Made by a program: the position numbers and the translations under genes. Under the pieces are notes generated by a model that was not told the origin of the DNA, ran no database searches, and saw only the letters and a program-made list of their open reading frames with translations. This document shows positions 3,721 to 18,234 of a stretch of 21,512 bases of DNA, in pieces (position 1 is the stretch's first letter; the number at the start of each line of letters is the position of its first letter). This DNA is from a virus, in the IMG/VR virus record IMGVR_UViG_3300025543_000260, positions 1 to 21,512 of that record. One strand, 5' to 3'.

Positions 3721-4134
3721 ATGAGTGATGAAATTTACAATAAAATGAATTTAGCTCCAATGAAATCAGTAGAGCTTGTCGCAACAGATAAAAATAGTGA
3801 TGATTTAGAAGATGATTTGGATGAAGTTAGATATAATATAAGAGCATTAATTGATAAAGGTGAAAAATCCTTAGAAGAGTTAATGGACCTTAGTTCACGT
3901 TCTCAGGACGTGAAGGCATATAGAGAATTTTCTGTTTTAGTGAAAGTTCTTTTGGAAGCAAATGACAAATTAATTGAGACAGCAAAAACCAGAAAAGAGC
4001 TTGCACGAACAGAAAAATCAGGTGGATCAGTAAACAATAATTTGTTTATAGGGACAACAACTGAAGCATTGAATTTTTTAAATAGTGCAAAAGACGATAA
4101 GGATGTAATTGATGGCGATTTCACAGACGGATAG
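3721..4134 (+). CDS. 16: terminase small subunit gp16
   Basis: A 137-residue acidic, helical protein directly upstream of gp17, matching the place and approximate size of T4 gp16 (about 164), the ring-forming subunit that recognises DNA and stimulates the gp17 ATPase. The central helices (DDLDEVRYNIRALIDKGEKS... and VKVLLEANDKLIETAKTRKEL) fit the coiled-coil hairpin oligomerisation core of the family. A GGAGAG site precedes the ATG. Its last 23 bp overlap the start of gp17, so the subunits are probably coupled in translation. Confidence 0.85.
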   Translation: MSDEIYNKMNLAPMKSVELVATDKNSDDLEDDLDEVRYNIRALIDKGEKSLEELMDLSSRSQDVKAYREFSVLVKVLLEANDKLIETAKTRKELARTEKSGGSVNNNLFIGTTTEALNFLNSAKDDKDVIDGDFTDG

Positions 4135-4708
4135 ATTCAAAAGAAATCCTCATTTACCAAGGGCTGGTACAGAAAAGCAATTCAGTGAATTTCAATTAAA
4201 AGAATTACTAAAGTGTAAAAATGATCCTATATATTTTGCAAAAACATATTTCAAAATTGTTCATGTGGATAAAGGGTTAATACCATTTGATTTATATGAT
4301 TATCAAGAAAAAGCAATTGAGCTTTTTCAAAATAATCGTAATATGATTATGTGTGCATCTAGACAGTGTGGTAAAACTTCATTTGCAACTGTTATTTTAC
4401 TCCATTCAGCTTTATTTAATGAAGAAAAACTCATAGCAATCCTTGCTAATAAGGGTGCGACAGCTAGAGAAATTTTAAGTCGTGTTAAAAAGGCTTATGA
4501 ACATTTACCAGATTTCATCAAAGGTGGTATTTTAGAGTGGAATAAAAGTTCCATTACCTTTGAAAATGGTTCTATAATAATGGCTGAAGCATCATCATCA
4601 GATAATATCAGAGGAAAATCATGTTTAACTGGTGATACAAGAGTGTGTGTTGAAATAAATGGTTCTTATTATTTTACTGAAATAGATAATATTATAAATA
4701 AAAAGTAA
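4112..4708 (+). CDS. 17: terminase large subunit gp17, N-terminal half fused to N-intein
   Basis: 198 residues: 170 of gp17 N-extein and 28 of intein. Walker A is SRQCGKTS (residues 83-90), the ATP-binding loop of the packaging motor; DYQEKAIELF (63-72) upstream resembles the region before the ATPase core. The extein ends at DNIRGKS (164-170), just before where the Walker B strand should follow, and Cys171 opens an intein block A (CLTGDTRV). The ORF then stops at TAA, so this protein alone lacks Walker B and the nuclease domain and cannot work. ATG at 4112 is preferred over TTG at 4109; AAGG lies about 9 bp upstream inside gp16. The complement is the gene at 5728-7122. Confidence 0.92.
   Translation: MAISQTDRFKRNPHLPRAGTEKQFSEFQLKELLKCKNDPIYFAKTYFKIVHVDKGLIPFDLYDYQEKAIELFQNNRNMIMCASRQCGKTSFATVILLHSALFNEEKLIAILANKGATAREILSRVKKAYEHLPDFIKGGILEWNKSSITFENGSIIMAEASSSDNIRGKSCLTGDTRVCVEINGSYYFTEIDNIINKK
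4622..4705 (+). other. N-intein piece (IntN, 28 aa) of a split intein
   Basis: Begins with the nucleophile Cys171 of the ORF and block A (CLTGDTRV), continues about 20 residues (EINGSYYFTEIDNIINKK region) and is ended by TAA. Block B (T-x-x-H) is not in this piece but in the C-piece, so the split is much nearer the N-terminus than in the classical DnaE type, which splits at the endonuclease site after about 100 residues. TerL split inteins with an N-piece of about 25 residues, such as AceL-TerL from an Antarctic lake metagenome, are the closest precedent I know. Confidence 0.9.
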
Positions 4709-4732
4709 GTTCGTCTATATATAAAGGTGCAT

Positions 4733-5731
4733 ATGTTCTATACAATATATAAAACTATTAATTTAATAAACAATAAAGAATATATTGGTTTTCATTCAGT
4801 AAAAACACTGAATGATATTGTATATGAGGAAAGTGTAAATGGTTCAATATTTAAAGATGGTTATTTAGGGTCTGGTAAATTAATAAAAAGAGCACTAGAG
4901 AAATATGGACCATTAAATATGAAACAAGAGCTTATATTAATAACTGATGATAGAGAGGAAGCTGAAAAATTAGAGAGTGAATTGGTCGATGTTAAATGGA
5001 CTCTTAGGGAAGATACTTATAATATAGCTTTAGGTGGTAATGTTAGAGTTATGGTAGGGAAGAATAACCCTATGTATGGTAAACCACTATCTAAAGAATC
5101 ATTAAAAAAAGCATTAGAGACCAGAAAAAGAAATGGTTATATTTTTAGTTGGGCCAAACTTATTGAAGTAGAAACAAATAAAATTTTCTATCGTTATGAT
5201 GATGTTTATGATTATTTTAATATAGAAGAAAAACAAAATAAACTTAAAAAACATAAATTATATGAATTAGTATTTAATGGTGTTATTAAGTATGAAAGTT
5301 CTTATTTACATGATATTGCAGTTAAAAGTTATTTGGAATATAACACTTTTATAGATAATAAACCAATAAGACGTGAAAAATTAGCTAAAATGACTAGTGA
5401 AAGATTTTCTGGTGTAGCAAAAAGTGAGGAATCTAATAGGAAAAGAGGAAAATCTATAAGCAAATGGATAGAAAAAAATCCTCAAGAACATAAAAAACGT
5501 ATGGATAAGATCAATAAAAATCCAGAAAAAATAAAAAAGACTGCAGATAAACATAGAGGAATGAAAAGGTCACAAGAAACAAAGGATAATATATCTAAAT
5601 CTCTAAAGGGTAAAACAGCAACCAATAAAGGAAAAAGATATATCTATAATGTGGATACATTAGATGTTAAAATGATAGACAAAAATGAAAATCTCCCAAT
5701 AGGTTGGCAGTATGGGTACAAACCCAAATGA
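4733..5731 (+). CDS. GIY-YIG homing endonuclease between the split terminase halves
   Basis: 332 residues from ATG 4733, which has AAAGG 5 bp upstream; a GTG at 4727 is less likely. The N-terminal nuclease domain has the GIY-YIG signature as YTIYK...KEYIGFHS (residues 3-22), then YLGSGKLIKRALEKYG and an acidic region EEAEKLESELVD with candidate catalytic Glu, then YNIALGGN. A NUMOD3-like DNA-binding module follows (GKNNPMYGKPLSKES), and a Lys-rich C-terminus with SQETKDNISKSLKGK is typical of Seg-type phage endonucleases. It should cut intein-free gp17 alleles and spread the whole insertion by repair. It lies in the same frame as IntN, separated by one stop and eight codons, and its TGA overlaps the next ATG. 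Confidence 0.92.
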   Translation: MFYTIYKTINLINNKEYIGFHSVKTLNDIVYEESVNGSIFKDGYLGSGKLIKRALEKYGPLNMKQELILITDDREEAEKLESELVDVKWTLREDTYNIALGGNVRVMVGKNNPMYGKPLSKESLKKALETRKRNGYIFSWAKLIEVETNKIFYRYDDVYDYFNIEEKQNKLKKHKLYELVFNGVIKYESSYLHDIAVKSYLEYNTFIDNKPIRREKLAKMTSERFSGVAKSEESNRKRGKSISKWIEKNPQEHKKRMDKINKNPEKIKKTADKHRGMKRSQETKDNISKSLKGKTATNKGKRYIYNVDTLDVKMIDKNENLPIGWQYGYKPK

Positions 5732-6021
5732 AAATTTTATCAGAAAATAAATTTAGAGATTTTGATGGCTTTGAATATATGGGAGACAAAGAAACATATA
5801 TTCTAGAGACTAACAAGACCACATTACGATGTACTAATGATCATGAGTTTTTAACTGATAATAGAGGTTGGGTAGAAGCACAAAATCTAGTTACAGGTGA
5901 TATATTATCTGGAAATGATTTTATAAGTTTCAAAAAAACCAATGTTATTGAAGATGTTTATGATGCCATAAATGTTGATGAGACTTCATCATTTTATGCA
6001 GAAGGTTTAACTGCTCATAAT
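5728..6021 (+). other. C-intein piece (IntC, 98 aa) of the split intein
   Basis: Contains block B as TNDHEFLT (Thr36, His39 of this piece), then GWVEAQNLVTGDIL typical of intein blocks, block F as DVYDAINVDETSSFYAEGL (about 76-94), and block G ending His97-Asn98, followed by Cys+1 of the extein at 6022. All residues needed for trans-splicing (Cys1 of IntN, block B His, His-Asn, Cys+1) are present. No endonuclease domain lies inside the piece. Confidence 0.92.
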
Positions 6022-7122
6022 TGTTTTCTATTATATATTGATGAGCATGCGTTCGTTGAAAATTGGGATGAATTTTCTGCATCTGTTCTACCTACTCTTT
6101 CATCTGGTGAAACTACAAAAATGATTTTTACAAGCACCCCACATGGCTTGAATCATTTCTATTATTATGTTGAAGGCGCTAGACAAAAGAAAAATGGTTT
6201 CGCTTTAATTGAGGTTGATTGGAGAGAAGTACCCGGTCGAGATGAAGCATGGAGACTTCGTGCTCTATCAGAACTTAATAATAATCAACTAAAATTTGAT
6301 CAAGAATATGACTTGGAATTTATTGGTTCATCTGGAACACTTATATCTGGTGCTGCACTTAAATTACTAAATCCAATGAAAGAATTATATGTTGATGAAC
6401 ATTTATTTAAATATAAAGAAAGAGTTCAGGGTGATATTTATGTTATGGTTGTGGATACATCACGTGGTAAAGCCTTGGACTATTCAGCATTTAGTGTAAT
6501 TAATGTAACAAAAACTCCATATGAACAAGTATGCACTTATCGAAATAACACGGTAACTCCATCTGATTATGCTGTTACATGTTCCACAATTGCAGAATAT
6601 TATAATGATGCACAAATTTTAGTTGAATTGAATGACTTGGGGTCACAAGTAGCTGATTTATTATTTGATGTGGAAAGACAATTAATATCAACAGCGAATA
6701 ATGGTAGAAATGGTAAACAAGTAAGTTATTCAACAAAATCTGAAAAAGGTTTGACTATATCAGCTGGTACTAAAGCATCTGGTTGCGCTATGTTGAAACT
6801 GCTTATTGAAGGTAATAAATTAATAATCAATGATAGGTTCACTATTGCAGAATTAAACAAATTTTCACAAAAAGGAAATACATATCAAGCTGAAGTAGGT
6901 GCTCATGATGATTTGGTTATGGGGTTAGTACATTTTGGTTGGCTTTCTTCAGTAGGATTCATAGACCAATTGAATGATTTGGATATCATGGCGGCACTTA
7001 GAGAAAAAACGGAAGAAGACCATATGAATGACCTTCTCCCATTTGGTATTATTTCTAATGGTCTAGAAGACTTTGATGAAGTTATTGAATTACATGAAGA
7101 TGAATGGCTACATGCATTTTAA
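5728..7122 (+). CDS. 17: C-intein fused to terminase large subunit gp17, C-terminal half
   Basis: 464 residues: 98 of C-intein and 366 of gp17 C-extein. The ATG overlaps the endonuclease stop (ATGA) with no Shine-Dalgarno visible, so reinitiation is likely; a TTG at 5704 is a poorer start. After splicing, Cys171 is followed by LLYIDEHAF, with Walker B Asp177 and catalytic Glu178, then motif III TSTPHG (207-212). The RNase H-like nuclease metal ligands appear as VDTSRG (Asp315), VELNDLG (Glu372) and GAHDDLVMG (Asp466/467). The joined protein is about 536 residues against 610 in T4. It cuts the concatemer and pumps DNA into the prohead through the gp20 portal. Confidence 0.93.
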   Translation: MKILSENKFRDFDGFEYMGDKETYILETNKTTLRCTNDHEFLTDNRGWVEAQNLVTGDILSGNDFISFKKTNVIEDVYDAINVDETSSFYAEGLTAHNCFLLYIDEHAFVENWDEFSASVLPTLSSGETTKMIFTSTPHGLNHFYYYVEGARQKKNGFALIEVDWREVPGRDEAWRLRALSELNNNQLKFDQEYDLEFIGSSGTLISGAALKLLNPMKELYVDEHLFKYKERVQGDIYVMVVDTSRGKALDYSAFSVINVTKTPYEQVCTYRNNTVTPSDYAVTCSTIAEYYNDAQILVELNDLGSQVADLLFDVERQLISTANNGRNGKQVSYSTKSEKGLTISAGTKASGCAMLKLLIEGNKLIINDRFTIAELNKFSQKGNTYQAEVGAHDDLVMGLVHFGWLSSVGFIDQLNDLDIMAALREKTEEDHMNDLLPFGIISNGLEDFDEVIELHEDEWLHAF

Positions 7123-11217: not shown

Positions 11218-11250
11218 AAAAAAGGCTGGAGAAATCCAGCCTTTTTTTTT
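11218..11250. terminator. bidirectional terminator between gp18 and the converging endonuclease gene
   Basis: Hairpin GGCTGGA-GAAA-TCCAGCC flanked by an A run and nine Ts. It serves gp18 rightward; on the other strand the stop codon of the leftward endonuclease gene overlaps its edge. Confidence 0.9.
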
Positions 11251-12823
11251 AAAATACATATTTTGCATTACCACAATCGTATATACATAGAAAATTATTT
11301 CTAGCCATATTTTCATATTCAGTCAAATTTTTATCAAATACTTCTAATTTATTTTCCAATTTGTGTTTTTGATAATTCATTCTATTTTCTAAATTCATAG
11401 AATCTTTCTTACAATAGAAATAATTTGGATTGGTATATTTTACAAAATTAAATCCTAATTTCTCATAAACTCTACCAAAACCAAATCTTAAATCAGCATA
11501 TGTAATAACAGACTTCAAACCAGAATGCTTAAACATTTTTGAAGCACCACCAATAATATTGTAACCTATTTTAAATGACATACGGGTGATTTCATATTCA
11601 TAATTTTTGTCAAATCTGGATTTTGAAAATGAAGAAACACCTACTAACTCATTATCATAATATAAACCAACATTAATAGAACTATTCACATAACCATTAA
11701 TATGATTTTTGTTATGAAATATCTTGGCTTCGGAAGATGTTATAAAACCTACATTACACTTTCTACCAAATATTTTTTGTGATTTACCTAATCTTGATTT
11801 AATCATGGATTTTATAAGGTCTTTATTATTAATCCATTCATTTTCGAATATTGTAACTACATCAATATCAAATTCATTCTTAAGAGTAAGGGTTTTTTCT
11901 TGGTGATATTTTTTAGTTGTGCCACTGTTTATACTATGCCAGAACAAACCACAAAATTCAAAACCAACATTTTTTTCTGGACAATAACAATCTATTTCTC
12001 TAACTCCAATAGAAGTTTTGAATTTATTTGAATAACACTCCACATCTAATGATTTTATATATTCCATAATTTCTAATTCACCCTTAGACTTATTATAAGA
12101 GTGTGATTTTATGTTTATATTCTTTTCATATAAAACTTGACGTAAAAAGCTATCAGAGAATGTATAACCATTTTCTTTAATGATTGTTGGAATATCTTTT
12201 GTCTCATTTTCTTTGAGAATATAATCTAAATCATTTTCAATAGTTTTTCTATTTTCAAATCTATCTCTAGTCCATTTGCCATGTGGGAAATCAATGTTTT
12301 GTTTTTTACATATAGACCTGATATGAGATGATTTTACATTATATTTTTCACAAATATCTTCTAAATACATTTCATCTGATATATCATTTAATATACACTC
12401 ATAATCATCAAACCCAATAAAAATATTAAGCCTCTTACAAATTTCATTAAATGTGATATAATTTAAATTTACACTGTATTTTTCATTTAAAAAGTTGATA
12501 GCATCCTTTTTAGTGTTAAATGAAAGAATATCATTTTCCCATGATTTATATTGGGGATATTTTAATGCGTTATCTGATTTCTTAAATTTTTTTCTTTTAT
12601 GGTGTTTTCTACATTCAGAACATACTTCTGTATTTCTAGAAAAACGTTGATTAAATATATTACCACAATCTGCACAGCGACATTCTACAATATAATTAGA
12701 TTCCCTTTTAAGGTGATTAACATTAACAGAAAGCGTTTCTTTAGAGGTATCATACCCTAAAGATTCATAATATTTTTTATTTGGTCCTGTTGATTTTATC
12801 TCGATTTTCTTTGTTATGATCAT
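11249..12823 (-). CDS. Vsr-like (EDxHD) homing endonuclease with zinc finger and GNAT-like C-domain
   Basis: 524 residues. An N-terminal zinc ribbon has C50-x2-C53 and C68-x2-C71. Middle repeats with helix-turn-helix character (residues about 100-240) probably read DNA. The nuclease core is GELEI (Glu249), REIDCYCP (Asp278), GFEFCGLFWHS (Glu289, His297), KKYHQEKT and VTIFENEW, the pattern of the Vsr-like EDxHD family first described with fractured genes and split inteins. The C-domain (about 360-490) has a GNAT-like layout common in these phage enzymes (GGASKMFKHSG, FGRVYEKLGFNF). It sits antisense between gp18 and gp19, 3 bp after the preceding stop with no Shine-Dalgarno, at the end of a leftward operon. 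Its cleavage site is unknown. Confidence 0.85.
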   Translation of the reverse strand: MIITKKIEIKSTGPNKKYYESLGYDTSKETLSVNVNHLKRESNYIVECRCADCGNIFNQRFSRNTEVCSECRKHHKRKKFKKSDNALKYPQYKSWENDILSFNTKKDAINFLNEKYSVNLNYITFNEICKRLNIFIGFDDYECILNDISDEMYLEDICEKYNVKSSHIRSICKKQNIDFPHGKWTRDRFENRKTIENDLDYILKENETKDIPTIIKENGYTFSDSFLRQVLYEKNINIKSHSYNKSKGELEIMEYIKSLDVECYSNKFKTSIGVREIDCYCPEKNVGFEFCGLFWHSINSGTTKKYHQEKTLTLKNEFDIDVVTIFENEWINNKDLIKSMIKSRLGKSQKIFGRKCNVGFITSSEAKIFHNKNHINGYVNSSINVGLYYDNELVGVSSFSKSRFDKNYEYEITRMSFKIGYNIIGGASKMFKHSGLKSVITYADLRFGFGRVYEKLGFNFVKYTNPNYFYCKKDSMNLENRMNYQKHKLENKLEVFDKNLTEYENMARNNFLCIYDCGNAKYVF

Positions 12824-16512: not shown

Positions 16513-18234
16513 ATGAAAAACTTTAAAATATTTTGTATTGAAGTCGCCCAACCTAAACCAAAAGGTGAAAAAGATTTCAAGGATTTGGTAATGGCAGGAA
16601 AACTTGTTGATCCAGAAGGCACATCTGAGGATTTAACAAAAGGTGTTAAAAAAGCTTCACGTAAAGCTGATAAAGCTCCTATTTCAGAAGCTGATGCTCA
16701 ACATACCAAGAATCTTAAAACGCTTAAAAAATCTTATGGTGATTTTAGAACAAATATTGGTAAAAGCAAAAAAGAAGACATGCTTAAAACAGCTAAAAAC
16801 ATGAATGAATCATTAGGTAGTGATTATTCAAGTATTTTTGATTCACTGAAAAAAGGTGATATAATTAAGATTAAATATAATTCAAGTAGTGAGGGTACAT
16901 TTAAAGTAACATTTAAATCAGTTGTTGGTAAAGCAAAAGTCGGTAAAGTTACTTTGATTAAACAAGGTGATGGTGCTAGTAAAATGAAACATTACTTATA
17001 TAATAGAAATGGTAAAGTGTCATTTGCATTGGGTGATATGGCTGCTTCTTTAACCAGTATCATCAAAGAATCATTTGAAATGAATGAATCCGCTTCAGGC
17101 TATGAGTTATATCACAAAGATTTTTCAACTGCAATGCAACATGCTTACAAATATGCAAAATCTAATCTTGGTATAACGGTTGATCCAGAAGAGATTGACA
17201 ATAAGGTTGCTATGGGTCCACCAAAACCATCTAATGGTAAAACAAACTCTTATCGTTTAGTCGGTACGGATGGTAAAAAAGCTATCCAAGTTCAGGTTTA
17301 TAACATGGGTAAATCCTATGAACTGAATATGTATAAAGAATCAGTTGATTTTGATGAAAGTGTTCAACTTGATGAAGCGTTATTTTCACCATCAATGATA
17401 ACAAAATTAAAAGCGTCATATAAATCACTTCCCGATAGGCTTCAACCAGAACAAACAAATAAAATGAAGGCTATACTTAAAGGTAAAGATAAAGAGGCGT
17501 TAATACAAATTGCCCGTGCTGATATTAAGTGGTTATCAAGTATCGCAACTACACAGTTAATAATTCAAGGCGTAAAAGCAGATGAAATCAATGAAGAATT
17601 GGGTAACAATAAACAGGTCTTGGATAAAAAAGATTTAGCTGCTGTACAAGCTAAACTTAATACCATGAAAAATCCACCTGTAGTTACCAGAGATAAAAAT
17701 GGTTGGTTTAATCTTAGATATAGCAACCCTCAAAGCACTCAAACTGGATTCCATGATCTGAAACAAGTACTTAAAGCTTTAACTGATAAAAACTTGAATG
17801 AATCTTATGTTGACGTAAATTACGTTTATATGAATGAATTTCAAGACATTCTTGAAGAAGTGAGTGATTTATATGATCAAGTTAGTGAACTTGATACATA
17901 CGCATGGAAGACAATTACTTCTAATTTAATGATTGTACGTGATAGTTTATTAGAAGCTCTACCAGAGACTGTAGATGATGATTACGAAGATGATTACGAA
18001 GATGATTATGATGCTGAAACTGTATCAGAATCATATTTAATTGAAGAAATTAAGTCTGGTGTAATTTCATTAAAAGATGGCACTAGTTATAATTTATCTA
18101 AATCAGATGCATCTGCATTGAGTAAGATGTTAGAAGAGGCCGGAAGTTCTAGAAAAGCAATTGAAAAAAGAGCAATGTCTTCACAAGAAGAACTGGAAAA
18201 TATGATTGACTTTGCAAAGGAAAGCATAAAATGA
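16513..18234 (+). CDS. modular prohead core/internal protein with gp21-type cleavage sites
   Basis: 573 residues between gp67 and gp21, the gp68 place, but four times longer than T4 gp68. N-terminus MKNFKIFCIE resembles a capsid targeting sequence (MKTYQEFIAE). Possible cuts after L/I-x-E: ISE59, LDE288, INE361, LNE430, LLE481, LEE542; M-x-E sites at 99 and 192. They separate domains: residues about 105-183 (a beta-rich unit with YNRNGKVSFALGDMA), 196-275 (ELYHKDFSTAMQHAYKYAK...YELNMYKE, a unit I recall from structural proteins of marine T4-like phages), 290-360 helical, 395-425, then an acidic region with a 12-bp repeat three times (DDYE). Probably enclosed in the head and processed. Stop overlaps the gp21 start. 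Confidence 0.7.
   Translation: MKNFKIFCIEVAQPKPKGEKDFKDLVMAGKLVDPEGTSEDLTKGVKKASRKADKAPISEADAQHTKNLKTLKKSYGDFRTNIGKSKKEDMLKTAKNMNESLGSDYSSIFDSLKKGDIIKIKYNSSSEGTFKVTFKSVVGKAKVGKVTLIKQGDGASKMKHYLYNRNGKVSFALGDMAASLTSIIKESFEMNESASGYELYHKDFSTAMQHAYKYAKSNLGITVDPEEIDNKVAMGPPKPSNGKTNSYRLVGTDGKKAIQVQVYNMGKSYELNMYKESVDFDESVQLDEALFSPSMITKLKASYKSLPDRLQPEQTNKMKAILKGKDKEALIQIARADIKWLSSIATTQLIIQGVKADEINEELGNNKQVLDKKDLAAVQAKLNTMKNPPVVTRDKNGWFNLRYSNPQSTQTGFHDLKQVLKALTDKNLNESYVDVNYVYMNEFQDILEEVSDLYDQVSELDTYAWKTITSNLMIVRDSLLEALPETVDDDYEDDYEDDYDAETVSESYLIEEIKSGVISLKDGTSYNLSKSDASALSKMLEEAGSSRKAIEKRAMSSQEELENMIDFAKESIK

Follow-up and report, generated by a model that had tools for sequence, protein, structure and literature searches.

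The terminase gene of the window is in two pieces

The window analysed here is the whole 21,512-base virus record IMGVR_UViG_3300025543_000260 from IMG/VR. The gene for the terminase large subunit (TerL) is interrupted in this record just 5' of the Walker B motif. Its first half ends in an N-terminal intein piece (IntN), its second half begins with a C-terminal intein piece (IntC), and a free-standing homing endonuclease gene (HEG) lies in the gap (Table 1). This is the layout of the fractured genes that Dassa et al. reportedly described in 2009, in which a split intein interrupts a conserved enzyme gene and an endonuclease gene stands on its own between the halves. Our analysis confirmed that the arrangement is real, and both the break ahead of Walker B and the intein piece at each broken end are as the original prediction, made from the sequence alone, had described them.

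Table 1. Features of the interrupted TerL locus in the window and fractured TerL genes of cultured phages
Feature	Position	Strand	Remarks
Terminase small subunit	3721..4134	+	directly 5' of TerL; phrog_445 2.3e-18
TerL N-half (N-extein)	4112..4621	+	ATG 4112; Walker A SRQCGKT; C-terminal end DNIRGKS; Terminase_6N; phrog_5989 1.1e-49
IntN, 28 aa, CLTGDTRVCVEINGSYYFTEIDNIINKK	4622..4705	+	Cys1, block A CLTGDTRV; stop TAA 4706-4708; TIGR01445 weak match
Possible HEG ribosome-binding site, AAAGG	4723..4727	+	proposed from the sequence
Free-standing HEG, 332 aa	4733..5731	+	probable GIY-YIG catalytic domain and NUMOD3 repeats; PHROG_314, NUMOD3, structure model
IntC, 98 aa, starts MKILSENKFRDFDGF	5728..6021	+	block B CTNDH, block F, block G GLTAHN; TIGR01443, 6dsl CatC, 7cfv
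TerL C-half (C-extein)	6022..7122	+	+1 Cys; starts CFLLYIDE (Walker B FLLYIDE); RNase H-like nuclease domain; Terminase_6N/6C
Fractured TerL, HY03 (T4-like)	L363 2007-4859		annotated as separate terminase/hypothetical genes
Fractured TerL, JK32 (T4-like)	L362 1742-4853		annotated as separate terminase/hypothetical genes
Fractured TerL, PSTRCR_127 (T4-like)	L366 1672-4580		annotated as separate terminase/hypothetical genes
Fractured TerL, VP-1 (Ackermannviridae)	L365 1319-4661		annotated as separate terminase/hypothetical genes
TerL halves with IntN and IntC, Campylobacter phage CPX	L211 2602-3318 and 25271-26599	- and +	
TerL halves with IntN and IntC, Campylobacter phage NCTC12673	L361, record 46027-46755 and 72885-74222	- and +	both unannotated

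Pfam, NCBIfam and PDB sequence searches were concordant on the terminase halves and IntC. The Pfam domain Terminase_6N spans the break (E 1.5e-11 on the N-half and 4e-10 on the C-half), Terminase_6C is located within the C-half, and the C-half matched T4 gp17 at 1.6e-50. The predicted junction after removal of the insert is RGKS-CFLLYIDE (RGKSCFLLYIDE; here and below a hyphen marks the insertion point). Rhizobium phage RHph_I1_18 has an intact TerL, with which the halves joined in silico share 58% identity over 524 aa in an alignment that runs ungapped through the junction (DNIRGKS-CFLLYIDE in the window, DSIRGHS-LFMLYIDE in RHph_I1_18), and the two phages have the same gene order. The idea that the match to RHph_I1_18 starts inside an intein was rejected, as the TerL of this phage is intact. 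Insertion-free relatives, with which the original prediction had proposed a comparison, were plentiful: 149 of those retrieved by searching with the TerL halves are contiguous at the window's site; their +1 residue is V, I, F or M, and just one has Cys. Since only contigs similar to the window or its relatives entered the set, locus counts throughout are not natural frequencies. The gap-free junction and the residues of the uninterrupted relatives indicate that the insert adds no extein residue and that the +1 Cys accompanies the intein.

The intein pieces retain all class 1 splicing residues

IntC scored above the cut-off for TIGR01443 (intein_Cterm), and the PDB entry 6dsl (CatC) matched it along its whole length (E 4e-5). 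The best Foldseek matches to its AlphaFold2 (AF2) model (pLDDT 82) were inteins, namely 7cfv, DnaB, VidaL and the atypically split Cat (best E 6.8e-5); the HINT fold was thus recognized from a model of IntC without IntN. The search with intein profiles, also proposed originally, gave for IntN a weak match to TIGR01445 (intein_Nterm) that coincides exactly with the piece (residues 172-198). Window IntN is 64-74% identical to the IntN of three relatives (L081, L083 and L084).

Blocks A, B, F and G are conserved in the aligned relatives. Cys1 (in CLTGDT) is invariant among four aligned IntN sequences, as are the Thr and His of the block B TxxH motif (T36 N D H39 in the window) among 11 IntC sequences. 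At the C-terminal junction (AHN-C), the penultimate His, terminal Asn and +1 Cys are all present; HN is kept in all readable loci, and HN-C was found in 47 of the 48 Walker B-zone inserts with a readable C-junction. All class 1 splicing residues are therefore present in the window, and splicing itself is predicted from them. The split-intein claim of the original prediction holds with one refinement: IntC holds all three of blocks B, F and G, so the break is of the atypical early type seen in AceL-TerL (IntN of 25 aa) and GOS-TerL (37 aa). The IntC alignment, searched against bacterial and archaeal genomes, found no relative.

The gap endonuclease belongs to a clade found at Walker B

The original prediction had placed a free-standing GIY-YIG gene in the gap. 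An endonuclease gene is there, its stop codon (TGA) overlapping the IntC start codon as ATGA, and the GIY-YIG label is supported by matches to the PHROG_314 homing endonucleases (1.6e-25) and NUMOD3 (1.3e-6), by a SegE_GIY-YIG match to the related endonuclease of L199 (7e-5, just below the cut-off), and by structure. The AF2 model placed the I-TevI catalytic domain at the top of the VIA-align list (1ln0; Z 6.2, under 8), and Foldseek returned 1mk0 at E 0.08.

Loci found by endonuclease similarity alone included 46 classed as full-length, some of them near-identical contigs (about 41 are truly full-length). TerL halves flank the HEG and meet at Walker B in 38 of these 46. Five of the remaining eight are composite matches spanning only the first 103-132 residues, and two more, L393 and L394, have a gene of the same HEG family immediately 5' of an intact TerL. 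In the rest of the recruited loci, members of the family occupy 28 of 32 split Walker B inserts and were found in none of 37 Walker A inserts, 19 inserts near residue 267 or 22 contiguous Walker B inserts. The probable GIY-YIG gene of the window belongs to a clade located almost only at TerL Walker B, the pattern expected from a site-specific homing endonuclease.

The element recurs at the same codon and its distribution favours horizontal spread

IntN and a homologous HEG occur at the window's codon in L081/L082 (two assemblies), L083, L084, L188-L192, L197 and L198, with IntC wherever the contig extends far enough. The repetition of the IntN-HEG-IntC layout at one codon in independent contigs (L081, L083, L084, L190/L191, L192, L197 and L198) argues against chance. 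The HEG stop and IntC start overlap in the complete loci inspected, except in L198, which has a truncated endonuclease. Once near-identical loci had been removed, 17 nonredundant loci carried an insert at the exact point of the window (S-CxxxYxDE), 14 of them split. In L198 (1909-2676) both intein pieces are intact beside the truncated endonuclease; L083 has a 69-base tandem duplication over the N-splice junction (2413-2483), which may be an assembly error.

Purifying selection on IntN is strong in the relatives: between L191 and L192, its 28 codons differ by 13 synonymous changes and one nonsynonymous change. Between L191 and L083, the element has diverged less than the gene that hosts it, with a nonsynonymous divergence (dN) of 0.03 for IntN, 0.27 for the HEG and 0.31 for IntC, against 0.45 and 0.55 for TerL. 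The TerL tree does not place the interrupted loci in a single clade (approximately unbiased test, p 1e-7), although the long branches of the window and L083 call for caution. Selection on IntN, the low divergence of the element and the scattered placement of its hosts together favour horizontal spread.

A probable trans-spliced terminase with a proposed homing unit

These observations are very probably best explained by invasion of TerL by a split intein that moves as a homing unit. An intein that is now split close to its N-terminal end would have entered between the RGKS codons and the Walker B strand (LYIDE), and two precursors would be made, TerN-IntN with a 28-aa IntN and IntC-TerC with a 98-aa IntC. 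The two pieces would bind to each other and fold as a single HINT domain, and trans-splicing would follow the class 1 route, with an acyl shift at Cys1, transfer to Cys+1, and cyclization of the last Asn aided by the penultimate His. The product would be a seamless TerL of 536 aa and about 61 kDa, in which a single chain carries both Walker A and Walker B. The GIY-YIG/NUMOD3 endonuclease would cut intein-less TerL alleles near the Walker B codons, and repair would then copy IntN, HEG and IntC as a single unit into co-infecting relatives. We infer that both splicing and cutting occur, and the locus suggests that an essential phage motor protein depends on trans-splicing.

Several points weigh against this explanation. 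The profile match to IntN is weak, because the piece is very short. The GIY-YIG profile PF01541 did not match the window HEG, and the AF2 model of the HEG is only fair (pLDDT 70, pTM 0.33). The scattered distribution could in part reflect loss instead of transfer, again with the long branches of the window and L083 in mind.

The TerL halves are separate open reading frames, as they would also be if insertion of the HEG had left TerL as genes in pieces whose products assemble into a non-covalent two-chain complex, like that of NrdA, which mobE splits in Aeromonas phage Aeh1, and the intein ends were relics. We consider this improbable, since relics would decay and here every splice residue is kept and IntN is under strong purifying selection; such a complex would, moreover, put Walker A and Walker B on different chains. 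T4-like phages commonly carry group I introns with homing genes. A group I intron containing the endonuclease reading frame and removed at the RNA level (4622-6021) would yield the same protein, and a spliced TerL transcript is known from ICP1 (PMC10448857). We give an intron very little credence, however, as the insert had no Rfam match at the gathering or a relaxed threshold and its ends encode conserved intein blocks under protein-level selection.

It is just as hard to credit a single contiguous intein chain, with the TAA and the change of frame either due to sequencing error or overcome by readthrough or frameshifting. IntN and the HEG do share a frame with a single TAA between them, and they are fused in frame in L199, L317 and others. 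However, IntC is a separate reading frame even in these fused forms, and the stop that follows IntN and the ATGA overlap with the IntC start are repeated in independent contigs, which argues against sequencing errors. Both an intron and a continuous intein hidden by sequencing error had been named at the outset as outcomes that would overturn the split-intein explanation, and neither was borne out computationally.

TerL as a probable repeated target of split inteins

A hidden Markov model of TerL, run over all loci, identified 80 interrupted TerL genes after removal of redundancy. Their inserts fall in three zones: at Walker A (GK-T/S), at Walker B (three points no more than about ten residues apart) and near residue 267 (directly before CEFLGSS). 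Split and contiguous forms both occur in every zone. In a group with L199, L317 and L319, IntN is fused in frame to the endonuclease and IntC alone is separate; this form is likely an intermediate. L081 (the same as L082) and L222 have split inteins in all three zones, with endonuclease genes in two of the gaps, so that their TerL is encoded as four polypeptides. The Walker A endonucleases (L081 4287-5291, L222 6947-8008, L084 2178-3188) apparently have an N-terminal part in common and differ in the nuclease domain at the end, which is a MUG113 GIY-YIG domain in L081 and another, unnamed PHROG in L084 and L197.

Fractured TerL genes are also present in cultured phages, namely HY03 and JK32 of E. 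coli, Providencia phage PSTRCR_127, Vibrio phage VP-1 and the Campylobacter phages CPX and NCTC12673. In the two Campylobacter phages the halves lie on opposite strands with 22 to 26 kb between them.

On balance, we think it somewhat probable that T4-type TerL is a serial target of split inteins at Walker A, Walker B and about residue 267, existing in empty, contiguous, IntN-HEG fused and three-piece states, that some phages (L081 and L222) would need three orthogonal trans-splicing events among four polypeptides to make one motor protein, and that the Walker B codons have a GIY-YIG clade of their own. The targeting of three zones, the four-piece TerL and the cultured phages with fractured TerL are of more interest than the window locus itself. 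TerL loci offer a natural series (empty, contiguous, fused, fractured and endonuclease-degraded) for how genes become fractured, and the coliphages HY03 and JK32, which have the same kind of arrangement, make the question of trans-splicing testable in laboratory E. coli, JK32 being able to grow on XL1 Blue. The naturally split intein that the window adds has a very short IntN and is of a sort used in protein labelling, and its relatives are a ready set for orthogonality tests.

Relation to known inteins and fractured genes

Split TerL inteins were already known, as the original prediction had said: AceL-TerL and GOS-TerL, with short IntN pieces, and the Cat consensus have been published (PMC11766414). 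AceL-TerL and GOS-TerL are metagenomic, naturally split TerL inteins with a long IntC, and the 28-aa IntN of the window falls within their range of 25-37 aa, with the split likewise ahead of block B, which sits in IntC. Identity to the window is low, and the likeness lies in IntN length and the CatC match; the C-extein of Cat in 6dsl did not show whether the insertion site is the same. The contiguous inteins of L208 (IDE-CAF) and L197 (residue 267) match CatC better than window IntC does.

The GIY-YIG partner had been thought notable, but one is already published for a fractured gene: AceL NrdHF has a split intein with a GIY-YIG gene between its halves (PMC7891396). As in the window, a split intein interrupts an enzyme gene and a free-standing HEG fills the gap; however, the AceL NrdHF intein is of class 3, has 98+48 aa with the usual split site and interrupts a ribonucleotide reductase gene, whereas the window has class 1 residues, 28+98 aa and TerL as host. 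Split TerL inteins with a short IntN and the pairing of a GIY-YIG gene with a gene fractured by a split intein had both been published, and the window adds to a known kind.

Mycobacteriophage TerL inteins cluster at ATPase motifs, and splicing and endonuclease activity have been shown for some (PMC5050341). They too lie in the ATPase domain near the P-loop and Walker B, but they are contiguous with an embedded endonuclease and come from another phage group, whereas the window's intein is split with a free-standing endonuclease. TerL of a Campylobacter coli phage has been reported with an intein and endonuclease (PMC3322345). The T4-like coliphages HY03 and JK32 (GenBank) resemble the window in having TerL in two reading frames with intein halves and a probable endonuclease gene. 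Their insert, however, lies eight residues further on (IDE-CAF) and the gap gene is of another kind; the annotation gives terminase and hypothetical proteins.

In the literature covered, we found no report of this Walker B site, of a GIY-YIG clade dedicated to it or of a gene with three split inteins, which does not prove absence, as Dassa et al. 2009 and the original TerL intein literature were outside the scope. Nor did we find a paper joining TerL, terminase, split intein and extein, with the same limit that Dassa et al. 2009 may already list the site.

Neighbouring genes

PHROG matches place the interrupted TerL in a T4-like head and tail module with genes for a tail sheath stabilizer, terminase small subunit, tail sheath, portal, prohead protease, scaffold and major head protein. 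A 573-aa open reading frame without a PHROG match lies between the portal and prohead protease genes (16513-18234). Between the tail sheath and portal genes the window carries a second homing endonuclease gene (11249-12823, minus strand; phrog_3339, 1e-88).

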